DNA of 64,000 bases from NCBI RefSeq assembly GCF_903645355.1, contig NZ_CAHJXR010000006.1:62001-126000 (forward strand). The letters are read 5' to 3'. This stretch comes from Schaalia sp. Marseille-Q2122. Lineage in GTDB: Bacteria; Actinomycetota; Actinomycetes; Actinomycetales; Actinomycetaceae. Positions 2,288 to 43,445 of this stretch are shown piece by piece. Each line of letters opens with the position of its first letter. The first letter of the stretch is position 1. A program made the position numbers and the translations under genes. The notes under the pieces are model-generated. The model was not told where the DNA came from. It saw only the letters and a program-made list of their open reading frames with translations, and did not search any database.

Positions 2288-3731
2288 GGCTCTTCACAGA
2301 TGAGGGTGTGGGCGTGGGTGTGGTTTGACTGTTGTGGGCGTGGTTGGGGTGGGTAGGGGTCGAGGTCCCCTGATGATGGAAGGCGACTAAAACCCCACTA
2401 CAGAAGACCCCGACATGGTTGACGTTACCCTCTTGCCTGCTTCTCTTGCTACTTTCCTTGGTCTAGAGCCCTTGGGAGTGGAAACAACCGGCTTGTCCCT
2501 GACTGCGGCCAAGGCAGTGGTCTATTGCCGGGTCCTGCCCCAGGAAGGGGAAGGGTTTTGTTCCTCGTGTGGAGGCCAGGGCCAACGCGCCGGTAGCGTG
2601 ACTCGTAGCCTGGTACACCTGCTCTTGGGACAACGCCCCACCCATCTGACGGTGCGCGTCCCACGCTGGAAGTGCGCTTGGCGCAGGCGAGTGTGGCGCG
2701 CTGATCTAGCCCGGTTGGCCAAGAGCCGGGCGAAGTTGACCCATCACGCAGTGCATTGGGCCCTGACCGGGTTAGCGGTTGACCAAATGTCCATCTCCCG
2801 CACGGCCAGGATTCTGGGCGCGGCGTGGAACACGGTCAATGACGCGGTCCTAGAGGCCGCAAAGGCCCATCTGTTTACTGATCCGCAACGTTTCGCCGGT
2901 GTAGAAGTCATCGGGGTAGACGAACACGCCTGGCGCCACAAACACGGTTCGCGTTTCGTTACCGTCATCATCGACCTGACCGCGGTGCACCAGGGCAAGG
3001 GCCCAGCCCGGTTACTGGACATGGTTGCAGGGCGCTCCAAACAGGTCCTGGCTACCTGGCTTGAACAACGCTCCCCTCAGTGGCGTGCGGGAGTCAAGGT
3101 AGTAGCAATGGAGGGGTTTAGTGGTTTCAAGACCGCCACCACCAGCCACCTGCCCGGCGCCCAAGCAGTCATGGACCCCTTCGACGTGGTTCAGCTAGCA
3201 GGCCAGGCCCTGGAAGAGTGCCGCCGGCGCGTCCAACACGAAACCCTGGGCAGGCGCGGGCGTAGCGGCGATGAACTCTACGCAGCTAGACCCACCCTGC
3301 TTACCGGCGCTGACTTGTTAACCCAAAGACAAGACGACAAACTCTGCGCCCTGTTCGCCAACCCGCAACATGCCGCTGTAGAGACCACCTGGATGATCTA
3401 CCAGCGCGTGGTGGCAAGCTACCGCGACCAAGATCGCCCAAGGGCCAGAGCCACACTCGCAGACCTGATCGACAAGATCTCAAGTGGGGTACCAGCCGGG
3501 CTAATCGAGATAAAACGTCTGGCAGCCACGCTCAAACGCCGAGCCAGTGACATCCTGGCCTATTTCGACCATCCCAGGACCAGCAACGGCCCCACCGAAG
3601 CAATCAACGGCCACCTAGAACACCTACGCGGCACCGCGCTGGGCTTTCGCAACCTCACCAACTACATCGCCAGAACCCTCCTCCACGCCAGAGGACTCAA
3701 ACACCACCTACACCCTTATCTGTGAAGAGCC
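2288..3731 (+). mobile_element. ISL3-family insertion sequence, about 1.44 kb
   Basis: The element is bounded by 21-bp terminal inverted repeats, 2288-2308 and 3711-3731, which match at 20 of 21 positions and begin GGCTCTTCACAGAT. It holds one transposase gene. ISL3 elements normally leave an 8-bp target duplication. Here the flanks read agattgtc (2280-2287) and cctttaaa (3732-3739), which do not match. This suggests a deletion or recombination at one end after insertion. The left end cuts the class C sortase; the missing part of that sortase is not present at the right flank. Confidence 0.9.
2415..3725 (+). CDS. ISL3-family transposase (DDE type)
   Basis: 436 residues, close to full length for ISL3 transposases, filling the insertion sequence to within 6 bases of its right end. 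An N-terminal zinc-finger region starts with CSSC at residues 49-52. The second pair expected near residue 87 reads Cys87-Ala-Trp-Arg90, so one zinc ligand seems to be replaced by arginine (codon CGC at 2682-2684). A helix-turn-helix follows at about 120-145. The catalytic domain shows D169 in VIGVDEHAW, an aspartate near 253-256 in MDPFDVVQ and a glutamate near 395 in GPTEAINGHLEHLRG. The reading frame is intact. Confidence 0.93.
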   Translation: MVDVTLLPASLATFLGLEPLGVETTGLSLTAAKAVVYCRVLPQEGEGFCSSCGGQGQRAGSVTRSLVHLLLGQRPTHLTVRVPRWKCAWRRRVWRADLARLAKSRAKLTHHAVHWALTGLAVDQMSISRTARILGAAWNTVNDAVLEAAKAHLFTDPQRFAGVEVIGVDEHAWRHKHGSRFVTVIIDLTAVHQGKGPARLLDMVAGRSKQVLATWLEQRSPQWRAGVKVVAMEGFSGFKTATTSHLPGAQAVMDPFDVVQLAGQALEECRRRVQHETLGRRGRSGDELYAARPTLLTGADLLTQRQDDKLCALFANPQHAAVETTWMIYQRVVASYRDQDRPRARATLADLIDKISSGVPAGLIEIKRLAATLKRRASDILAYFDHPRTSNGPTEAINGHLEHLRGTALGFRNLTNYIARTLLHARGLKHHLHPYL

Positions 3732-26701: not shown

Positions 26702-27625
26702 GTGTCTCAGGCATATTTTCAAGGCAGTAAACAGTATCTTCCCGTAGCCCCCCACTTAGACGGACTAAGCGCGGTGGGCAGTTCAACGAAGGTTTCCTAT
26801 CACCTTCTTAATGCTGCGTTTGTTCTTGGCCCATATCTCCTCGGTTTGGGCACCGTTTTTCTCGCCTCTAAGGCAGACTCGGAATCTGTCGTACAGACAT
26901 TCCTCGGCGTCATCGCCATGATCTTCATGCTGATGCTCTACGTTATTCCGGTCATCAACCTGGTGATGATCCTCATGCGGGGACGCACCCTGCCGATGGC
27001 AATGATGAAGGTTCGCGCGGTGGACGTACGCACCGGAAAACCCGCAACAGGAATGCTCTTCCTGAAGATCTTGCTTGAGGGAGTCATCGCCTATTTCTCG
27101 CTGGGGATTGGCTTTGTCATCGTTGTTTTTCTCAGCCAAGACGAGTTCGGGCGAACCTGGTTTGACCGCGTCGCTAACACGATGATGGTATCGACCGCGC
27201 GTGGCCGCGACCCCTACAAGACTCCGATCCTTGCGCATTCTGCTCCTCTGGGCTACTCCGAAGCTTCTATGAGCCAACAGTCGCCACTTCACGGCCACGC
27301 AACCTATGGTCAAGCTCCAGCTGGACACGCACAAAATGGCCAGCCCCCATTCGGGCAAGCGCAGTACGGACAAGCGCAGTACGGACAGGTGCCCGACACT
27401 CCACGGGCGTATCCGGGAGCGCCCTCCCCTTACCCTCCCTCAACGACAGCGCAGGCGCCCTACGGCCAAGCTCCTCATGAGCACTCTCCCAGCGCACAGG
27501 CACCCTTCGCTCAGCCCGCCCAAGCGCCCTTTGCCAATGGCTCGCCTTACCCGCCACCTGCGCCCCAGACGCCACATGCCACACCTGATCCGACGAATCC
27601 TGACGAACAAGGACGCCAGATCTAA
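26702..27625 (+). CDS. RDD-family membrane protein with a Gln/Pro/Tyr-rich tail
   Basis: 307 residues from a GTG behind GAGGAGG. Residues about 30-165 form an RDD domain with three or four membrane helices. RGRTLPMAMMKVRAVDVRTG is the family's arginine/aspartate core, and EFGRTWFDRVANTMMV matches its C-terminal DR..A.T.V segment. From about 195 to the end the protein is low-complexity, with YGQA/FGQA-type repeats rich in Pro, Gln, Ala, His and Tyr, probably a disordered cytosolic tail. The role is unknown; some RDD proteins are Na+/H+ antiporters or accessory membrane factors. Confidence 0.85.
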   Translation: MSQAYFQGSKQYLPVAPHLDGLSAVGSSTKVSYHLLNAAFVLGPYLLGLGTVFLASKADSESVVQTFLGVIAMIFMLMLYVIPVINLVMILMRGRTLPMAMMKVRAVDVRTGKPATGMLFLKILLEGVIAYFSLGIGFVIVVFLSQDEFGRTWFDRVANTMMVSTARGRDPYKTPILAHSAPLGYSEASMSQQSPLHGHATYGQAPAGHAQNGQPPFGQAQYGQAQYGQVPDTPRAYPGAPSPYPPSTTAQAPYGQAPHEHSPSAQAPFAQPAQAPFANGSPYPPPAPQTPHATPDPTNPDEQGRQI

Positions 27626-27722: not shown

Positions 27723-27783
27723 CTCAGAAACGCTCACGCAGCGCGGCCTCGGACTGCTCGCGCAGCTCATCGAGCCCCACAAT
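27723..27783 (-). pseudogene. Detached second copy of the purL 3' end
   Basis: 61 bases match 30312-30372 at 56 positions. On the minus strand they encode [19 protein letters not shown] and a stop, identical in protein sequence to the PurL C-terminus; all five differences are silent. Upstream of the match the sequence departs at once into the RloB-gene flank. This is the displaced or imported end of another purL allele, 2.6 kb from the real one. Confidence 0.9.
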
Positions 27784-27807: not shown

Positions 27808-28392
27808 TTACCTTCCTGACAGCAATCGTTGAACAAGGTGCACCATCCCTGAGCCTGGCGAGGGCGGCATTTGCCCTCGCTCGTGTGCATCAGCAGAAGG
27901 GAGTTCACACTGCACACAGGCATGATGCATATTTTCGAAGGGGAAGTCTGCTGGTAGCGACTTCTCTGTGGGCTTTCGTCCCGTGATCTGTCCAAGATGT
28001 CTCTGTGCATCTGCCTGAGAGTGATAGGTCTTCACTCGCTCATAGTGGGCGATCAACCAGACCTCGAAGCATGGGCGAGAGATCACGGGCACCCAGAGCT
28101 GATTCTTCCTGGTCCGTTTTTCACATCCACGAATTAGTGGCAACAGATCACGAGCGTCCTCATCAACGACAATCCAGATCTCGGTATAGCCACTGAGATC
28201 ATTGGCATCGAGCTTGCGCAAGAGGGTTGAGGCTTCGCCAGGAAGAAACTGCACCGTAATGGAGAGGCGAGAACCCTTCGCTTCACTTTTGAGGCGTTTC
28301 AGATAGGAATATTCCGTTCGTTCACCATTGGTGACAAAAAGGATCGCCGGACGAAGCGGACGTTTCTGCCGCAGGCGTGCCACCGTTCTCAC
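27808..28392 (-). CDS. RloB-like protein (TOPRIM-like nuclease partner of RloA)
   Basis: 194 residues. The N-terminal FVTNGERTEYSYLKRL contains an invariant-looking Glu24. IWIVVDEDARD supplies an Asp-x-Asp (77 and 79). Together they give the acidic pattern of a TOPRIM-like metal site. SRPCFEVWLIAHYE in the middle and the C-terminal ending are also typical of RloB. Its start overlaps the end of the ATPase gene by 4 bases (ATGA), so the two are co-translated. RloA/RloB genes were first noted as open frames linked to type I restriction loci, and similar ATPase plus nuclease pairs act as phage-exclusion systems. Function here is by analogy. Confidence 0.85.
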   Translation of the reverse strand: MRTVARLRQKRPLRPAILFVTNGERTEYSYLKRLKSEAKGSRLSITVQFLPGEASTLLRKLDANDLSGYTEIWIVVDEDARDLLPLIRGCEKRTRKNQLWVPVISRPCFEVWLIAHYERVKTYHSQADAQRHLGQITGRKPTEKSLPADFPFENMHHACVQCELPSADAHERGQMPPSPGSGMVHLVQRLLSGR

Positions 28393-29732
28393 CCCCCAAG
28401 AGGCTGAGTGAGGAAGTCATACAGAAGGGCATCGTCGACATCAGGCACCGCTCCAAATTGGCCAGCCATATAACGGCGCTCGCTATTGTTACCGACGCGA
28501 TTGTCGAAGTCTGCCAGGGAGAAGAGTTCTGAGAGCCCCGCATCATCCTTCTCCACGAACCACACATTCTGGGGTGCCAGTAGGCGTGCGGGCGCATTGC
28601 CCAGCAGCGTGACATCGTGAGTGGTGAAGATGAGCTGGGCACTCTTGAGATTCGTGCGCTCACTGGCGAAGAGCTCCACAATGTAACGCACGAGGCCAGG
28701 GTGCAGGCTGGCATCAAGCTCATCGACGAGGAGCACGCCACCTGAGCGCAGCGTGGTGAGCGCATGCCACACGATGGTGAGCCATGTGAGGGTGCCCGAG
28801 CTTTCCGCACTGAGAGGGAGCTCGAAGGATTGACCATCTTTGCCGCAGTGGGTGAAGAATACTTTCTCGCGCGGCGCAGAGAGGGCTTGAGCATAATTCG
28901 CCACGGCTGCCGCTACAAACGGCGCCGTGCTTACAAAGCTGCGCCACAGTCCGTCAGTGGATTTGAGGTCCGGGCTTGCTTTCCCAATATCCATGGCACG
29001 TCGGACGTCAATCTTCTCAATACCAAGGTCACCCGCCTTAAGGACAGCAGTGACGAGATCCCTCTGTTTTTCTGGAGCTTTAACCATCTCCTCAAAAAGA
29101 GGCAGAAGCAGCTCAACATCTGCTGCTTCACGGAATGACACCTGGCGAACACCCGCGCCGCTCGCAAGAGCCGATGCCACAGGTGCGAGCATGCTGTGCT
29201 CATAGCGAAACGCCAGGGCAAGGAAAAGAACCCTGGACGTCGTTAGTTTCAGCACCTCAGAGCTCGGCCCTTTCAGACTTGGCCCTTTAGTGAAGGACAT
29301 TTCCGCACCCTCACTCTCCTGGGTGCGCTCGAAGAGAGTCCGGGCAGTCCCTCGAGGGTAGGCATACAGGCCTTCGAAACTCACGCCCCATTGACGCACT
29401 TCCACTCGATAGCGGTAGCGGACTTCCTCAGCGACAAAATCCACGTCATATGAGGTGCGTCGCTCCGGCTCCTCGATCGCAGCGCAGGGCTGGTACAGCA
29501 AGGTCGTGGATTGCTCAGGCGAACTCAGCGCACGCGCCAGGCTGTCCATGGCCTGGATCAGCGTTGTTTTACCCGAGGCGTTCGGGCCGTAGATTGCCGC
29601 AATTGGCTCTACACAATCCGCCCAGGTCTGCCCTTCGCGGGGGACATTCGTCTTGAAGGAACGCCGCGTGAGATCAAGGGTCGCTTCTTCTGCGAAGGAT
29701 CGGAAACCGGAAACGCTAAATGACAGCAGCAT
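28389..29732 (-). CDS. RloA-like AAA/ABC-type ATPase
   Basis: 447 residues, SMC/ABC-like. The N-terminus LLSFSVSGFRSFAEEATLDL is the usual start of OLD/RloA ATPases. Walker A is GPNASGKTT (49-57). A signature-like AESSGTLTWLTIVWHALTTL precedes Walker B LLVDELDASLHP near residue 332, and IFTTHDVTLL gives the H-loop. It should be the sensor or motor half of a two-gene system with the overlapping RloB-like gene. The pair is the only cargo between purL and the duplicated purL end, which supports a horizontally moved defence cassette. Confidence 0.9.
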   Translation of the reverse strand: MLLSFSVSGFRSFAEEATLDLTRRSFKTNVPREGQTWADCVEPIAAIYGPNASGKTTLIQAMDSLARALSSPEQSTTLLYQPCAAIEEPERRTSYDVDFVAEEVRYRYRVEVRQWGVSFEGLYAYPRGTARTLFERTQESEGAEMSFTKGPSLKGPSSEVLKLTTSRVLFLALAFRYEHSMLAPVASALASGAGVRQVSFREAADVELLLPLFEEMVKAPEKQRDLVTAVLKAGDLGIEKIDVRRAMDIGKASPDLKSTDGLWRSFVSTAPFVAAAVANYAQALSAPREKVFFTHCGKDGQSFELPLSAESSGTLTWLTIVWHALTTLRSGGVLLVDELDASLHPGLVRYIVELFASERTNLKSAQLIFTTHDVTLLGNAPARLLAPQNVWFVEKDDAGLSELFSLADFDNRVGNNSERRYMAGQFGAVPDVDDALLYDFLTQPLGG

Positions 29733-30311
29733 GCCACAATACTATCAAGATAGACTAATATCGGGAATACTTTTCCGAAAACGACCCTAACTCAAGCAGG
29801 CTCCCCCTCTCTCGGGTTATAAGACAGGATGTGTCGCATTGGACTGAATGAACTGTCCTGGGTTTTGTTCCTAGGCGGTGACTAGTTCATTGTTGTCGGT
29901 GTGGGGTAGTGGAGTTGTGCCCAGACGATGACCTCTCCCCATCAGGGATGCTGGCACTGGTTTTTCGCGCTCACGGAGTTGCTGGCAGCAGGTTTCAATG
30001 CTGACCATGAGGTGTGCCCACCTCCCTGCGCTGGTTTTATCTCGACCAAGCAAGTTACGTGACACTTGTTGCATAATGTGACACTTATAGCTGTCCCAAA
30101 AAGTTACAACTGCTCCGCAGCGCAACAACTGTCACGTAACTAGGAGTTCTACAGGCGCACTCCCCTTCTCTCTTGCCCCCATCAAAGAGAGGAGGCCCAA
30201 AGGATCACTCCTTGGGGCCTCCTCAACCAGATGCACTCAAGCGGCACAGCCGCTCACTCAGTCACGCCTATTGGCGACGCGGTCTCACGCGCCCAGAACC
30301 ACCCACGCTCG
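29733..30311. other. Noncoding stretch between the RloA/B pair and purL
   Basis: 580 bases. The first 80, next to the ATPase gene, are AT-richer and should contain its promoter (aagatagactaatatcgg). A leftward open frame at 29871-30128 (85 codons, containing SLMGRGHRLGTTPLPHTDNN) resembles nothing I can name and may be a fragment of a mobile gene. A palindromic element lies at 30054-30140. Confidence 0.5.
30054..30140. repeat. Long palindromic element, copy 1
   Basis: GTTACGTGACACTTGTTG (30054-30071) is an inverted repeat of 30123-30140, matching at 17 of 18 positions, with a 51-base centre. A diverged second copy lies at 52973-53055. Both share GTGACAYTTGTTGCATA and a following GACACTT. Confidence 0.85.
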
Positions 30312-30312
30312 C

Positions 30313-32691
30313 TCAGAAACGCTCACGTAGCGCAGCCTCAGACTGCTCGCGCAGCTCATCCAGGCCCACAATCCAGCCAGCGCCATTGCCCATGTCCGAC
30401 AGCAGGTCGGCGCCAACGATGGCCAGCATGTCGCCACCGGTAGTGCCGATACGCACTGCCGGGACGCCCTCGGCCTCGGCGGCGGCGTAGACAGCGGGCA
30501 ACGCACCCTCGGGCACGACCACCAGCGCACGCGCCTGAGTCTCGGTGAAGAGCAGCGTGAAGTCATCCAACTGCGCACCCTGCACGGAAGCACTCAGATC
30601 GAAGCTGCCGCCAATACCGAAACGCAGCGAAGCATCCACCAGAGCCTGCAGCAGGCCGCCATTGGAGAGGTCGTGTGCGGCGCGCACCAGCGGGCGGCCA
30701 TCGGGGCCGTCGGTGGCGGACAGTGCGCGCACGACATTACCCAGGGAGACCTCGGCATTGAAATTCACCAGCGGAGGCATACCACCCAGGTGCTTGTGGA
30801 CAATGCGAGCCCACGCCGAACCGTCGAGTTCCTCGCGGCTCTCACCCAGCAGGACCACGGCCAGTCCCTCTTCGGTAAAGCCCGAAGGATTCGCGCGGCG
30901 CACGTCCTCCATAATGCCCAGCATGCCGACAACGGGCGTGGGATTAATGGAGGAATCGGGCTGGCCCTTGACGGTGCCCGAAGAGTTGTAGAGGGAGACG
31001 TTACCGCCGGTGACGGGCACACCCAACTCAATACAGCCGTCAGCCAGACCGGTCATGGCCTGCACGAGCTGCCACATGGCGTCGGTGTCTTCGGGGTTAC
31101 CGAAGTTCAGGCAGTCGGTGATGGCCACGGGGGCTGCGCCGACGACGGCCACGTTCCGGTAGGCCTCGGCCAGGGCCTGCTGCGCGCCACGGTAGGGGTC
31201 AAGCTTGGTGTACCAGCCGTTGGCGTCGGTGGAGATCGCCACGCCCAGGTTTGTGTCCTCATCCACGCGCACCACGCCCGCGTCGTCAGGCTGGGCCAGG
31301 GCGGTATTGCCCTGCACGTAACGGTCGTATTGGTCGGTGATCCACGCCTTGGAGGCCTGGTTGACGTCGGTGAGGACGGTGGTCATGGTCTCGCGTAGTT
31401 CCTCGGGCGTCGCAGGACGAGGCAGCCGCTCAGCGGAGTCAGCGTTGAGGGCATCCTGCCATGCGGGCCGGGCGTAGGGGCGGTCGTAGACCGGGCCGTC
31501 GTGGGCGACGGTCTTGGGGTCAACGTCGACGATACGATGGCCGTAGTGGTCGATGGTCAGGCGCCCATCGCCGGTCAGGTGGCCGATGACGGAGGCCTCG
31601 ACGTCCCACTTGTCGATAATGGCGAAGAAGGCGTCACGGTCCTCGGGGGTGACGATGGCCATCATGCGCTCTTGGGATTCGGACATGAGGATTTCGCCTG
31701 CGGTCAGCGTCGGGTCACGCAGCAGCACATTTTCGAGGTCAACGTGCATGCCCGAGTCGCCGTTAGAGGCGAGCTCAGAGGTCGCGCAGGAAATACCGGC
31801 GGCGCCGAGGTCCTGGATGCCCTGGACGACGCCCGCGGCGAAGAGCTCCAGGCAGCATTCGATGAGGACCTTTTCCATGAAGGGGTCGCCCACCTGCACG
31901 GAGGGGCGCTTGGCGGGCATGCCGTCCTCGAAGGTTTCCGAGGCGAGGATGGAGGCGCCGCCAATGCCGTCGCCGCCGGTGCGCGCGCCAAAAAGAACCA
32001 CGAGGTTGCCCTCGCCGGTGGCGTTGGCCAGGTGGATGTCCTCATGGCGTAGGGTGCCCACGCACAGGGCGTTGACGAGGGGATTGCCCTGGTAGGAGGA
32101 GTCGAATTCGGTTTCGCCGCCGATATTGGGCAGGCCCAGGCAGTTGCCGTAGCCGCCCACGCCCGAGACAACGCCGTGGACGACGCGCGCGGTGTCGGGG
32201 TGGTTGACGTCGCCGAAACGCAGCTGGTCCATGACGGCGACGGGGCGTGCGCCCATGGAGATAATGTCGCGGACGATGCCGCCCACGCCCGTTGCTGCGC
32301 CCTGGTAGGGCTCAACGAAGGAGGGGTGGTTGTGGGATTCGACCTTGAAGGTCACGGCCCAGCCCTGGCCGATGTCGACCACGCCGGCGTTTTGACCCAT
32401 GCCGACGAGCAGGCGTGAGCGCATTTCGTCGGTGGTGCGCTTGCCGAATTGTTCGATGAGGTGCTTCTTGGAGGACTTGTAGGAGCAGTGCTCGGACCAC
32501 ATCACCGAGTACATGGCGAGTTCTGCGTTGGTGGGGCGTCGGCCCAGGATCTCGCAGATGCTCTCGTACTCGTCGGCTTTGAGGCCCAGTTCAGCCCAGG
32601 GCATCTCCTTGGTGGGAGTTGCTGCGGCGTCGGCGGTGGTGTCGGGGAGTTCGCGAGGGTAGTCAGCGTTGGGGGCGACCTCGGCGGTCAT
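30313..32691 (-). CDS. purL: Phosphoribosylformylglycinamidine synthase subunit PurL
   Basis: About 792 residues, the normal size of the small PurL that works with PurQ and PurS. It converts FGAR, ATP and ammonia (from PurQ) to FGAM, step four of purine synthesis. The N-terminal [18 protein letters not shown] carries the catalytic His. [40 protein letters not shown] and [16 protein letters not shown] are ATP- and substrate-binding segments in usual order; [12 protein letters not shown] is also present. The start at 32691 (MTAEVAP) is favoured over 32703 by GGAG six bases upstream. The 3' end is duplicated at 27723-27783, beyond the RloA/B pair. Confidence 0.95.
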
Positions 32692-32703
32692 GTGTGGCTC
32701 CAT

Positions 32704-38370: not shown

Positions 38371-38414
38371 GCTTCAGGTGAGGTATCCCCTGTGGGGATT
38401 CTCGTGTGCCTCGT

Positions 38415-41400
38415 TTATCGGGTCATGCGTCGGCGTGCCCACACACCAGCAGCACCAGCAGCCACGATCAACACCGCGATACCGCCAGCCACTGCCGCAT
38501 CAGCACCAGTCTTAGCGACCTTGCCAGGCACAGGATCCTTGACCTTGACAAAACCAAAGTCCAAGGTCATGTCCTGATCACCATGCTTGACCAAGCTCAC
38601 CGAAGAAACCGAACCCGACGACGAATCATTCGACACATCCCCAGTGGCATTGGGCTTAGTCGCCACATAGCCCGACGGAACCTTCACAGACACCGTGTAC
38701 TTCTGACCATCCTTGAGCACAGGCAACTTCTCAAAGACATACTTACCGTCCTTGTCAGTTGTCACCACCGGCACGACCTTACCGTCAACATCAGTCACAG
38801 ACTTACCATCAGGACCAGTCAAGGTCAGCTCAACACCAGCAATACCAGGCTCACCAGCATCCTGACGACCATTGCCATTGGAATCAAACCACACGAAATC
38901 ACCAACAGACACAGTCGCGTACACAAGACCAAAGTCAAGACTCAGATCCTGATCGCCATCCTCAAGAAGATCACCAGAAGACTCCGACCCCGTCGAAGAA
39001 TCATTATCCCTAGTAGTCCCCTCAGCCTGAGCCACAGTATGCGTGTACTGAGCAGGATAAGCAATGCTCACCGTGTAGCTCTGACCAGGCTGAAGAACAG
39101 GCAGATTCCCAAACGTGTACTTGCCATCCTTATCAGTGGTAGCAACCCCCACAGGATTACCATCCACATCCACCACAGGCTTACCATCAGGGCCAGTCAG
39201 CGTCAGCTCGATACCTTCAACACCAGGCTCATCCGCGTCCTGCTTGCCATCCTTATTGGAGTCAAACCACACGAAATCACCAACAGACACCGTCGCCTTG
39301 ACAAAACCAAAGTCCAACGTGTCATCCACACGCCCATCAGCCACCAACGGCTTAATCGTCTGATCACTACCCGTCGCCGAGTCATTCGTCGGATCAGTAC
39401 CCGGAGCCTGCGCAATAGTCGGCGTCATATCGTAGGGGAAACGCGTCACCTCAACCGAATAACGCTCCGCATCCGCAAGAACGGGGAGGTTTTCGAACAG
39501 GTACTTACCATCACCCTTAGTGGTCAACACCGCGTTGTAGGGCTTGCCATCGGCATCAACAGCAACCTTCTGACCATCAGGCCCAAAGATAGTCAGCTCA
39601 ACACCAGCCAAACCAGGCTCACCAGCATCCTGCTTACCATCCTTATTGGAATCAAACCACACAAAGTCACCAACAGAGACCCGCGCATTGACGAAACCAA
39701 AATCCAACGTCCGATCCGACGCGCCATCCACAGTCAGCTCCTGAGCGGTAGCCTTCCCAGCCTGCGCATCAGAATCCTTAGCAGGATCATCATCACCAGC
39801 TTCAACGGTGGGAGTGTACTTGGCAGGAACCTGAACCGAAACCACATACTTCACACCAGCAGGCAACACCGGCAGGTTTTCGAACAGGTAAGCACCATCA
39901 GCCTTGGTCACAATCGCAGCGACCGGCACAGCATCAGCCTTATCCACATCATCAACATGCACAACCGGCTTGCCATCAGTGCGGCTAATAGTCAAGGTTG
40001 CCCCTTCAATACCGGGCTCACCATCATCCTGGAGACCATTCTTGTTGGAATCAAACCACACAAAGTCACCAACAGAGACAGCGGCACGAACATACCCAAA
40101 GTCAAGGGTCATATCGGACGCGCCATCGGTGGTCAGATCCGCAGACTCAGCCTTACCAGCCTTCGCATCAGAATCCTTAGCAGGATCATCATCACCAGCC
40201 TCACTGGTGGCAACCCATCCGCGAGGCAGATCGGTGACCTTGACAACGTAGTGAGTACCAGCAGGCAACGCCTGCAGATTCTCAAAGGAATACAAGCCCT
40301 GCTCATTAGTCTTCGTCGTCAAAGCAGCCAGAGGCTGACCATCAGCACCATTGACAGCAGCACCATCCGAACGAGAAATCGTCAGAGTCACGCCCTCAAT
40401 ACCAGGCTCACCATCACCCTGAAGGCCATCCTTATCAGAGTCAAACCAGACAAAGTTACCCACAGACACAGCAGGCTTAATGAAACCAAAGTCCAAGCTC
40501 ATATCAGAGGCGCCATCGGTGGTCAGATCCGCAGACTCAGCCTTACCAGCCCCAGCCTCAGAATCCTTCTCAGTATCGGCACCCTGCTTATCCTTCGTCG
40601 CCTGGTAACCAGCCGGAGCAGTCACACTCACAACATAGTGAGTACCAGCAGGCAACGCCTGCAGATTCTCAAAGGAATACAAGCCCTGCTCATTGGTCTT
40701 CGTCGTCAAAGCAGCCAAAGGCTGACCATCAGCACCATTGACAGCAGCACCATCCGAACGAGAAATCGTCAGGGTCACGCCCTCAATACCAGGCTCACCA
40801 TCACCCTGAAGGCCATCCTTATCGGAGTCAAACCAGACAAAGTTACCCACAGACACAGCAGGCTTAATGAAACCAAAGTCCAAGCTCATATCAGAGGCGC
40901 CATCGGTGGTCAGATCCTTGGACTCAGCCTTACCAGCCCCAGCCTCAGAATCCTTCTCAGTATCGGCACCCTGCTTATCCTTCGTCGCCTGGTAACCAGC
41001 CGGAGCAGTCACACTCACAACATAGTGAGTACCAGCAGGCAACGCCTCAAGACCAGTAAAGGAATACTCACCCTGAGGATTAGTCACCGTCGTCAAAACA
41101 GCCAGAGGCTGGCCGTCAGCACCGTTGACAGTAGCGTCATCCGAACGAGAAATCGTCAGAGTCACACCCTCAATACCAGGCTCACCATCACCCTGAAGGC
41201 CATCCTTATCAGCATCGAACCACACGAAGTTACCAACAGACACAGCAGGCTTAATGAAACCAAAGTCCAGCGTCATGTCGGAGGCGAGGTCTTCTTCAAG
41301 CGGACCTTGCGAGAGCACCCAGTCGGTGCTGGAGTTCAAGTCAACCGTCACGCCCGCGGTGTCAGCCTCGGTCGGAATGTATCCGCCCGGAGGGGGAGTC

Positions 41401-43211
41401 ACCATCGTGACCTTGTACTTCTTGCCTGCGTGAGCACCGGTCAGCGGGGGCAGCTTATCGAAGACGTAGCGGCCATCAGCCTTGGTGGTCAGATCAGTGA
41501 CCGGCTGACCTTCAACATTGGTCACCGGGGTGTCGTCATCGTAGGTGAGCTTGAGAACAGCGCCAGCAAGGCCACTTTCAGTGTCGTCCTGCTTGCCGTT
41601 CTTATTCTCATCGAACCAGACGTAGTTACCCACGGATACCGACGGCGTCAGCTTGGCAGTGTTTTCCAGCTGGACGGTGGTGACCTTCTGCGATTCGATC
41701 ACGAAGGAGATTTCGTTCTTACCCTTTTGATCACCGACAGTGAAGAGGGGTTCGCCCCAGACGACGTCGCTGGGCAGAGCAGGGTTCGTTCCCGCTGCAT
41801 CTTCGACGAGGCGAATGGTGGTGCCAACGGGGAAGGGCATATCGCCGCCGTTGGGGTAGGGGTTGACCGCGTCGAATGCCAGAGGCATCTTCACGGGGTT
41901 TTCAGGAGCGGTCCAGCCGGGGTAGTCGGTGGCTTGCCTTCCCACGGGCAGAGTCCAGTGGACGTTGAGCATCGCCTTGCGTGCGGGGTCGGCGAGGACG
42001 GCGTCACGCTTGGGTCCGCCCAGGGTCTTGGAGACGCGGAAGGAGCCGTAGTTGTCCTGCATGACAGCGGTTGCGCCTGCAGATGCGGTGTAACCTGCCG
42101 ACTTCACCTGGCGGAAGAAAGGCTCGTTTTGGCCATCGGAGAGTTCAACGTTGTTCTTCAGTACGACGCCGTCGACGACCTTGCCGTCGTGCTTGGTGAT
42201 GTAGAGGAACTTGTAGTTGACATCGTCTTGCCATTCGCCCGAGAGCTTCGTAATCCGGTAGGTTGCGGTCTTACGATCAGGGGAGATGTCGGTGTCAATC
42301 TTGAAGCTTCCCAGCTCAAAGTCATCGGGGAATCGACCGGGGACCGAAGGAGTGGAGTCTCCGCCGGTAGCGTCGGGACGACCAACGAGGGTGGTCCAGG
42401 GAAGCTCGGGGTTCTCCTTGGTCTGGATGATGTAGAGCTCGGTGATGTCGGTGAAGGTCTGAGGACCTTCCAGCGTGTCCTTAATGACGATGGGGTTAGG
42501 CAGCGCCTGACCCTTCTTCTCCGCAGCAGCCTTCAGGGAGCGGCCACTGAAGACCACGTACCAGCGCAGGAAGCGGGCGTCAGAGGGGACACCGTCATGG
42601 CTCTTGTGCAGGGGCTGATCGACCCACTGCTTGGGGCGGCGCCCCTCTACGGCCTGCCCTTCAGGCATGGTGGCCTCGCGGGGGACGCCATTACCATCGA
42701 AGTTAATGGTCGTGCCGGTCTTATCGACAACTGCGGCGGCGAAGTAGCCGCTGCCTCCCACACCGGTCCTACCGGTGAAGTCGATCTGATTTTCAAAGAT
42801 ACAGGTGATGGCCTTGCGTTCGGGGTAACAGGTACCGATCTTCTGATCGCCCCACATGAAGTCGAACTTGTTCGTCTCGTTGATATTGAGTTGAACGGGC
42901 ACACCGACACGGAGGGAGTCGCCTGGTTGGGGACGAGGAGCGGTGTCGTCGAGGCTCCACTTCCAGGTGATCAATGCGGACTCGTTGAGGTAGACGGGGC
43001 CGGCAACGCCAGTCTTATCACTGCCGCCGCCCCAACGCTTCATGACAAAGTCAGAAACGACGATGTCTGCGCGGTTCGTGTGGTTCGTCGGCGGGGCTTC
43101 TGCACGTGCCGCGAAGTGTGGCGAGGCAAAGAACACTCCGCTCACCACGAGTACAAAGGCGATGAGGATCGCCAAGGGCCCCCTCAAGGACCGCATTCCA
43201 ACAGGTTTCAT
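38415..43211 (-). CDS. Cell-wall-anchored SdrD-B-repeat adhesin, 1,598 residues
   Basis: A signal peptide covers about 1-40 (LAILIAFVLVVSGVFFAS). A head region of about 480 residues with no named domain follows. Eight SdrD B-type repeats begin near 524, 655, 784, 913, 1044, 1176, 1307 and 1434, each opening SVG(N/D)(Y/F)VWFD and carrying a DxDxDG-like calcium loop such as DSDKDGLQGDGE. Repeats 3 and 4 are almost identical in DNA as well as protein. The C-terminus shows VAKTG, a membrane helix and ARRRMTR, a variant sorting signal. SdrD-B stalks are calcium-stiffened rods that hold an adhesive head away from the wall; the ligand is unknown. GGGAG precedes the ATG. The gene is monocistronic, with a terminator downstream. 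Confidence 0.92.
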   Translation of the reverse strand: MKPVGMRSLRGPLAILIAFVLVVSGVFFASPHFAARAEAPPTNHTNRADIVVSDFVMKRWGGGSDKTGVAGPVYLNESALITWKWSLDDTAPRPQPGDSLRVGVPVQLNINETNKFDFMWGDQKIGTCYPERKAITCIFENQIDFTGRTGVGGSGYFAAAVVDKTGTTINFDGNGVPREATMPEGQAVEGRRPKQWVDQPLHKSHDGVPSDARFLRWYVVFSGRSLKAAAEKKGQALPNPIVIKDTLEGPQTFTDITELYIIQTKENPELPWTTLVGRPDATGGDSTPSVPGRFPDDFELGSFKIDTDISPDRKTATYRITKLSGEWQDDVNYKFLYITKHDGKVVDGVVLKNNVELSDGQNEPFFRQVKSAGYTASAGATAVMQDNYGSFRVSKTLGGPKRDAVLADPARKAMLNVHWTLPVGRQATDYPGWTAPENPVKMPLAFDAVNPYPNGGDMPFPVGTTIRLVEDAAGTNPALPSDVVWGEPLFTVGDQKGKNEISFVIESQKVTTVQLENTAKLTPSVSVGNYVWFDENKNGKQDDTESGLAGAVLKLTYDDDTPVTNVEGQPVTDLTTKADGRYVFDKLPPLTGAHAGKKYKVTMVTPPPGGYIPTEADTAGVTVDLNSSTDWVLSQGPLEEDLASDMTLDFGFIKPAVSVGNFVWFDADKDGLQGDGEPGIEGVTLTISRSDDATVNGADGQPLAVLTTVTNPQGEYSFTGLEALPAGTHYVVSVTAPAGYQATKDKQGADTEKDSEAGAGKAESKDLTTDGASDMSLDFGFIKPAVSVGNFVWFDSDKDGLQGDGEPGIEGVTLTISRSDGAAVNGADGQPLAALTTKTNEQGLYSFENLQALPAGTHYVVSVTAPAGYQATKDKQGADTEKDSEAGAGKAESADLTTDGASDMSLDFGFIKPAVSVGNFVWFDSDKDGLQGDGEPGIEGVTLTISRSDGAAVNGADGQPLAALTTKTNEQGLYSFENLQALPAGTHYVVKVTDLPRGWVATSEAGDDDPAKDSDAKAGKAESADLTTDGASDMTLDFGYVRAAVSVGDFVWFDSNKNGLQDDGEPGIEGATLTISRTDGKPVVHVDDVDKADAVPVAAIVTKADGAYLFENLPVLPAGVKYVVSVQVPAKYTPTVEAGDDDPAKDSDAQAGKATAQELTVDGASDRTLDFGFVNARVSVGDFVWFDSNKDGKQDAGEPGLAGVELTIFGPDGQKVAVDADGKPYNAVLTTKGDGKYLFENLPVLADAERYSVEVTRFPYDMTPTIAQAPGTDPTNDSATGSDQTIKPLVADGRVDDTLDFGFVKATVSVGDFVWFDSNKDGKQDADEPGVEGIELTLTGPDGKPVVDVDGNPVGVATTDKDGKYTFGNLPVLQPGQSYTVSIAYPAQYTHTVAQAEGTTRDNDSSTGSESSGDLLEDGDQDLSLDFGLVYATVSVGDFVWFDSNGNGRQDAGEPGIAGVELTLTGPDGKSVTDVDGKVVPVVTTDKDGKYVFEKLPVLKDGQKYTVSVKVPSGYVATKPNATGDVSNDSSSGSVSSVSLVKHGDQDMTLDFGFVKVKDPVPGKVAKTGADAAVAGGIAVLIVAAGAAGVWARRRMTR

Positions 43212-43445
43212 AAACTCTCCCGGGTCAGATCAGTGACAGAATTGAGTTGAAATTTGCACCGAAATTGGGTTATTTCGGTCAACTTTCCTCGTTCATCAGA
43301 TCCAGTGTATTGAGGAATATGAAAGGCCGCAATAGAAAATGGGAATTCGCTGGGAGAAAGCCCCATAAACCCTCTTAATTCGGCTTGAATTTTATATAAG
43401 ACCTGGTCAGCGACTATCAGTTTTCTCCCAGATTCCGCCAAAGAA
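43212..43445. promoter_or_regulatory. AT-richer leader of the SdrD-type adhesin gene
   Basis: About 230 bases with stretches such as ttgaattttatataag. CTGGGAGAAA (43350-43359) and TTTCTCCCAG (43422-43431) form a spaced inverted repeat and could be paired regulator sites. No gene is supported here. Confidence 0.5.

Follow-up and report, generated by a model that had tools for sequence, protein, structure and literature searches.

The AbiL system, first described in Lactococcus lactis, consists of two overlapping or adjacent genes, the first coding for an ABC ATPase of the AAA_21 type and the second for an RloB-family protein. PARIS pairs the OLD/ABC ATPase AriA with a separate effector of the Toprim type, AriB, which is a DUF4435 protein; the OLD nucleases and GajA of Gabija fuse an ABC ATPase with Toprim chemistry; and the RloA/RloB genes of type I restriction loci, which are of Campylobacter origin, share the Pfam family RloB. 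AbiL of L. lactis is described as an abortive infection system of two genes, RloB proteins as occurring in type I restriction operons and as related to OLD_TOPRIM by HHpred (PMC10440598, in part). In PARIS, the ATPase holds a tRNase that is freed by a phage product (PMC12409363 and PMC11455837, both in part). The present analysis concerns a pair of genes, here named abiLi and abiLii, in a stretch of 64,000 nucleotides (nt) from Schaalia sp. Marseille-Q2122 (contig NZ_CAHJXR010000006.1, positions 62,001 to 126,000), the whole of which is hereafter referred to as the window. The pair very probably represents an AbiL-type anti-phage (abortive infection) system and appears, from its protein families, to be an ordinary-looking, intact member of that known kind, with a presumed defence activity. 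What is notable is mainly a segment of the sensor ATPase unlike that of the sister species and a repeated scrap of the purL end that flanks the pair.

The two open reading frames (ORFs) lie on the minus strand and overlap by 4 nt (Table 1), as a preliminary description of this DNA had reported. The 447-amino-acid (aa) protein matches the Pfam family AAA_21 (1.7e-32) and the 194-aa protein matches RloB (PF13707; 7e-18) along its whole length, and since both matches exceed the curated cut-offs, the frames are no chance pair. In PADLOC, the former matches AbiLi (PDLC02335; 5e-80) and the latter AbiLii (PDLC02337; 1.5e-17). The pair is assigned to AbiL on the basis of the two PADLOC matches and the Pfam RloB match, and this defence-profile search leads to a family of the same kind as the ATPase plus Toprim-like nuclease, candidate for phage defence, that had been proposed beforehand, the activity itself being predicted. 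The locus differs from described AbiL in its chromosomal location at the 3' end of purL in an actinobacterium, in an asparagine (Asn22) at the place of the canonical Toprim glutamate and in an RloB protein whose identity to the aligned relatives does not exceed 50%, the exception being the protein of Schaalia canis OH770 (91%), the nearest relative among the fetched loci.

A single scan of genome contigs found relatives of RloB at 69 loci, most of them in actinobacteria and proteobacteria; the rest comprise one cyanobacterium, one archaeon and a small number of other organisms. An AbiLi-like ATPase is located just upstream on the same strand in 67 of these (tblastn with the window ATPase, E <= 0.01), the loci L099 and L107 having no such match, and the earlier statement that the two genes travel as a unit thus holds among the relatives. 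The spacing could be measured in 66 pairs, RloB being taken by rule to begin at the first start codon close to the stop of the ATPase; 41 of these overlap and 62 fall between -53 and +15 nt. Within the genus, an RloB match is present in nine of 35 genomes, the source genome included. The viral contigs of IMG/VR, scanned with the ATPase, contained no relative; RloB was found in one plasmid record and in three weak phage records, none of which covers 80%, and from the plasmid and phage records it follows that no close mobile carrier was found.

Alignments of 53 ATPases and 58 RloB proteins were used to assess the conservation of the key residues. In the ATPase, the key residues of the Walker A, signature, Walker B and switch-type histidine motifs are intact in all the aligned sequences. 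Both Walker motifs had been recognised before, and the residues G49, G54, K55, D337 and E338 within them are invariant, with the Walker B ending at Asp337-Glu338. The AlphaFold2 (AF2) model of the ATPase (mean predicted local distance difference test, pLDDT, 88.5) structurally matches Rad50 (Z 20.2), PtuA of retron Ec83 (Z 19.2) and AriA of PARIS (8v46_B; Z 16.8, root mean square deviation (rmsd) 3.6, 261 residues).

The AriA match raises the alternative of a strict PARIS-like tRNase system, in which an AriA-type hexamer would sequester the effector and a DNA-mimic anti-restriction protein (such as Ocr) would be the trigger. The AriA model of PADLOC also matches the ATPase (1.2e-32), with a matched stretch and a profile length identical to those of Pfam AAA_21, and the source genome carries, on another contig, an N6-methylase of the type I kind, so that anti-restriction triggers could matter. 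However, the effector belongs to RloB and takes the place of AriB, no DUF4435/AriB match was obtained for it and PF14491 was not found in the source genome; the AbiLi score lies far above that of AriA, and Rad50 and PtuA fit the model better than AriA does. Relatives of AriB (DUF4435) for a profile comparison were found in one of 246 genomes of the class, too few for the purpose. A strict PARIS-like system is therefore regarded as unlikely, and the assignment to AbiL is preferred.

In the RloB alignment, G23, E27, Y30, D77 and the stretch P107-I114, which includes E110, are invariant in all 58 sequences. Glu24, named earlier as a key residue, turned out to be variable (K 17, E 16, R 10, Q 8), and the invariant acidic residue of this loop is Glu27; of the two aspartates named with it, Asp77 is invariant and position 79 is D in 49 sequences and E in nine. 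The AF2 model of RloB (pLDDT 90.4) has strands at residues 16-21, 44-49, 71-77 and 98-106 and helices at 26-37, 54-62 and 84-93. This is the Toprim order of elements, with Glu27 after strand 1 and Asp77 and Asp79 at or after the end of strand 3. When the model was re-aligned against PDB structures, the Toprim domain of OLD (6nk8_A) ranked first (Z 7.8, rmsd 4.4, 147 residues), and the small Toprim protein 2i5r gave Z 5.5. A profile comparison with OLD Toprim domains (28 of the 35 OLD-Toprim loci fetched) scored 24.7, as compared with maxima of 23.9 in 100 column shuffles and 22.2 in 100 block shuffles and with 14.4 for the reversed profile. In this alignment, Glu27 is matched to the second acidic position of the OLD motif EGxSD/E, D77 and D79 to the DxD of OLD and N22 to the canonical Toprim glutamate. 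The metal ligands of BpOLD are E400, D455 and D457 (metal A) and E404 and E508 (metal B) (PMC6755086, in part). By the profile alignment, Glu27 corresponds to E404, D77/D79 to D455/D457 and N22 to E400, and Glu110, located after the fourth strand, is a candidate for the role of E508.

Several observations weigh against the pair being an AbiL system with a Toprim-type effector. The RloB protein lacks the canonical Toprim glutamate, with Asn22 at that position, the column being E in 25, N in 19 and G in nine of the 58 sequences. Chains of the lumazine-synthase type tie with 6nk8_A as matches to the RloB model (Z 7.8-7.7), Foldseek with this model gave no match at E <= 0.001 and its weaker matches are led by lumazine synthases, and a search of the PDB by sequence, with the single sequence or a profile, gave no match for RloB. 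When RloB was compared with Toprim, hhalign itself gave a probability of only 6.8%, and the score of one column shuffle was near the real one. The structure prediction suggested earlier as a check returned the Toprim order of elements, together with a best PDB match tied with unrelated sheets, and did not refute the earlier reading. The PADLOC AbiLii match spans only profile positions 24-85 of 170. Finally, AbiLi and AbiLii of L. lactis did not inhibit the growth of E. coli in a 2014 screen, and AbiLi of F. nucleatum gave no antitoxicity against its AbiLii, which is toxic in E. coli (PMC3985639, in part). Because of these results in E. coli, a step in which the ATPase neutralises a toxin is unsupported for AbiL itself.

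The same results bear on the possibility that the pair is a selfish module of the toxin-antitoxin kind, kept by addiction and with defence as a secondary role. The toxicity of F. nucleatum AbiLii agrees with such a module, and the toxin-antitoxin network of NetFlax joins AAA (D29) with RloB (D44) (PMC10440598, in part), but the failure of AbiLi to neutralise AbiLii in the F. nucleatum test and the stable position of the pair in two sister species speak against it, and this explanation is considered improbable.

By family membership and by analogy with PARIS, the likely scheme for an AbiL system is one in which the ATPase holds the nuclease and a phage trigger frees it. AbiLi, as an ABC/OLD-type ATPase, would assemble with ATP, bind AbiLii and keep it inactive; a phage product would be recognised by AbiLi, perhaps through the variable helical segment 244-290, and AbiLii would be released or activated; AbiLii, its metal ions bound by Glu27, Asp77, Asp79 and probably Glu110, would then cut nucleic acid, and the infected cell would be halted by this cleavage. 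We infer complex formation, trigger sensing, nuclease action and the target from related systems, and the target may be tRNA, as for AriB of PARIS, or DNA, as for OLD. In the portions of the literature searched, AbiL is only named or tested for toxicity, and neither a trigger nor a substrate was found.

A linkage to restriction loci had been stated for these families in the preliminary description, which also noted that no restriction system stands beside this pair. The other ORFs of the window, comprising those of 90 aa or more and the shorter purS, were compared with PADLOC (E <= 1e-5); of these 49, 35 formed a first batch, and most of the 14 in the second and third batches (10 and 4) are doubtful or overlapping frames. 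No restriction gene or defence helicase was found among the 49, the sole matches being PDC-S07 (5e-8) and dCTPase (5e-6). The locus thus differs from the RloA/RloB restriction loci, since no hsd or other restriction gene lies beside the pair, and from Gabija and OLD, since two separate proteins stand in place of the fused GajA and no defence helicase was seen. The two N6_Mtase matches in the source genome (1.5e-112 and 3e-4) are both on another contig, C2. In 36 of the 69 relative loci, with at most two flanking proteins per side, 139 of 141 flanking proteins yielded one N6_Mtase and one Methylase_S in Pfam, so this linkage proved rare in the loci examined; the families beside RloB were otherwise mainly metabolic (25 listed of 90). 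In PADLOC (25 listed of 108 models), mad3 was matched in two neighbours and mad2, PDC-S06, PDC-S15 and PDC-S01 in one each. Standing alone without restriction genes appears to be usual in the sampled loci, though other restriction types could lie among the families and models beyond those listed. N6_Mtase matches were present in the genomes of 44 of 50 relatives (50 of the 69 were taken), on contigs not tied to the loci, and this result was not used for the neighbours. The pair had been called a little-studied, stand-alone one; it is indeed usually alone in the sampled loci, but the system already bears the name AbiL.

The abiLi products of the window and S. canis are 91-92% identical over residues 1-243 (222/243) and 291-447 (145/157), and match at 10 of 47 positions in residues 244-290, before the ABC signature. 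The AF2 model has its lowest confidence at residues 251-290 (pLDDT blocks of 55-59). At the DNA level, 25 of 300 shuffles reach the real alignment score of the segment, whereas its flanks are 0.877 and 0.854 identical. A compensated frameshift as the source of the segment is unsupported, since the DNA alignment is no better than many of the shuffles. Simulated unconstrained substitution at the four-fold rate, with indels not included, leaves about 37% amino-acid identity. When 48 pairs of close relatives (not independent of one another) were compared, the 40-residue window of lowest identity began at 240-279 in 34 pairs and at 180-199 in 11. Among 16 non-overlapping pairs, each aligned on its own, the identity of the segment is lower than outside it in 13 and not lower in three; the minimum window falls within the segment in seven and within a wider arm (165-312, in the numbering of the first protein of each pair) in 13, as counted from the printed ranges. 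The expectation that segment 244-290 would hold the lowest-identity window of every close pair was dropped, as only seven of the 16 pairs agree with it. By these two comparisons, the arm before the signature therefore tends to change fastest in the AbiLi family, and the window and S. canis form an extreme case of it.

Residues 244-290 are thus regarded as a candidate trigger-recognition patch. A further proposal, possible though rather doubtful, is that this segment serves AbiL as its trigger-recognition module and is diversified or swapped from locus to locus, with the ATPase core and the nuclease conserved, a role likened to that of the specificity subunits of restriction systems. Each AbiL would then watch a different phage product, and the duplicated purL end may also be the scar of an exchange of abiL-bearing DNA at a slot anchored on purL. 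The dull alternative is a loop with lost constraint and indels.

The gene upstream of the pair carries AIRS and AIRS_C domains and is taken, from its sequence, to be purL. On the minus strand, the order in the window is purL, a possible terminator, an 89-nt repeat, abiLi, abiLii, a 61-nt copy of the purL end and a perfect 22-nt inverted repeat, followed by an RDD gene in the opposite orientation, then by SCP_3 and a protein of 2542 aa, presumably of the LPXTG type judging by its sequence. In S. canis, purL is followed by abiLi, abiLii, SCP_3 and the large protein; abiLii and SCP_3 touch (TAATG), and there is no copy of the purL end. The pair is present at purL only in these two among 27 purL regions of the genus, the source genome included. 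Position and fold could suggest a housekeeping role in purine synthesis or DNA repair, with an SMC/Rad50-like ATPase and a Toprim partner: the pair directly follows purL in both species, its position has been kept since they split (four-fold identity 0.66 for abiLi and 0.64 for purL), and the ATPase fold is closest to that of Rad50. However, the purL C-terminus was found within the fetched flanks (1.5 kb at the genus loci) only at L041, the locus of S. canis, among the 69 relative and eight genus loci, and no consistent linkage to a housekeeping pathway, which the preliminary description had named as telling against defence, was thus seen. The low frequency of RloB matches in the genus, the neighbours elsewhere, which are mostly unlike each other (first 25 listed of 90 families), and the rapidly changing segment of the sensor also argue against such a role, which is deemed highly improbable, and the reading as an AbiL defence system is retained.

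The age of the pair was examined through four-fold-site identities between the window and S. canis, which are 0.664 for abiLi, 0.742 for abiLii, 0.638 for purL, 0.645 for purQ, 0.605 for purC, 0.589 for purD, 0.542 for SCP and 0.748 for the large protein. Since the values for the pair resemble that of purL, the pair was most likely already in place when the two species split; a recent transfer of abiL between them is unsupported, as the four-fold divergence is like that of purL.

The two copies of the 61-nt repeat lie 2589 nt apart, start to start, and all five differences between them are at third positions and synonymous; the extra purL end seems, for this reason, to have diverged while it was still functional coding sequence, before it was joined here. 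Of the 29 other genomes of the genus in which purL was matched, 26 had their purL 3' side fetched, over at most about 19 kb (under 2 kb in two), and the repeat was not found in these flanks. The interval from purL to SCP is a variable slot, its length ranging from 135 to 10542 bp where SCP was found (21 genomes); SCP was not found within the fetched stretch in the other six of 27. The window keeps an S. canis-like TAATGCC right after abiLii, and the SCP start recurs after the RDD gene. Two possible histories fit this: a segment with the purL end plus RDD may have been inserted after abiLii, or abiL may have entered at purL earlier, with a later deletion in S. canis. Site-specific integration of abiL at purL, with the copies as attL and attR, is a possible origin; it is opposed by the lack of an integrase between the copies, by the location of the only two PF00589 genes of the source genome on other contigs and by the presence of the pair without the repeat in S. 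canis.

Table 1. Features of the abiL locus, with positions in the window
Feature	Position	Strand	Details
abiLi / rloA-like gene	28389..29732	-	ATG start; 447-aa ABC (OLD/Rad50-type) ATPase, presumed sensor and nuclease holder
Walker A, residues 49-56 GPNASGKT	29565..29588	-	G49, N51, G54, K55 in 53/53
Hypervariable segment, residues 244-290, before ABC signature	28863..29003	-	S. canis comparison and low pLDDT
ABC signature-like S311-S-G-T314	28791..28802	-	S311, G313, T314 in 53/53
Walker B, residues 333-338 VLLVDE	28719..28736	-	D337, E338 in 53/53
Switch-type histidine H372	28617..28619	-	53/53
Stop/start overlap of abiLi and abiLii, 4 nt (GTGA)	28389..28392	-	Sequence
abiLii / rloB-like gene	27808..28392	-	GTG start; 194-aa Toprim-like protein, presumed nuclease effector
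Glu27, invariant acidic residue of first Toprim-like loop	28312..28314	-	58/58; aligned with second acidic residue of OLD EGxSD/E
Asp77-Glu-Asp79, DxD motif	28156..28164	-	D77 in 58/58; position 79 D in 49, E in 9; aligned with OLD DxD
Motif S105-x-PCFEVWLI-x-H116 after strand 4, with Glu110	28045..28080	-	P107-I114 invariant; S105 in 57/58, H116 in 55/58
purL (flank, upstream neighbour)	30313..32703	-	AIRS and AIRS_C domains
purL native 3' end, left copy of 61-nt direct repeat	30312..30372	-	Repeat comparison
Second copy, last 61 nt of purL region, downstream of the abiL pair	27723..27783	-	92% identical; five differences, all synonymous
Possible terminator (inverted repeat after purL) in purL-abiLi spacer	30189..30224	-	Not among two T-tailed terminator sites
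89-nt palindromic dispersed repeat in purL-abiLi spacer	30053..30141	.	Like a miniature inverted-repeat transposable element (MITE) or REPIN; own-genome matches and fold

The 89-nt palindromic repeat (ends AGTTACGTGACA...) has 15 further partial matches in the source genome, at 69-85% identity and in both orientations; its arms of 20 nt are 95% complementary, its DNA fold has a z of -3.87 and it is absent from the S. canis spacer. A second short repeat family occurs in the same spacer (about 29845-29892), with three other matches in the source genome (C1:220221, C1:221499 and C7:196397). In the purL-SCP slot of another genus genome, G008, an Abi_2 protein is encoded (PF07751, 1.3e-44; L114:18088-19005), a second kind of Abi gene there. 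The RDD-family gene (26702-27625) is in the slot of the window only, among the 27 purL regions, and its best genus homologues elsewhere are 27-36% identical. A single Rfam match, to mir-789 and far below its cut-off, was taken as chance, and a promoter scan was not used as it gave two sites against 0.9 expected. Elsewhere, the window carries an ISL3-family transposase at 2415-3725 (DDE_Tnp_ISL3, 7.4e-55) and, on the plus strand at 38406-43250, an open frame of 1614 aa for which neither Pfam (at 1e-5) nor PADLOC gave a match.

AbiL is a relative of PARIS, and its RloB proteins keep the DxD and the second acidic residue, not the canonical Toprim glutamate, which provides a checkable point of chemistry. 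Most of the differences between the sensors of the window and of S. canis lie in one segment of 45 residues, and this makes sensing by AbiL approachable by a direct domain swap.

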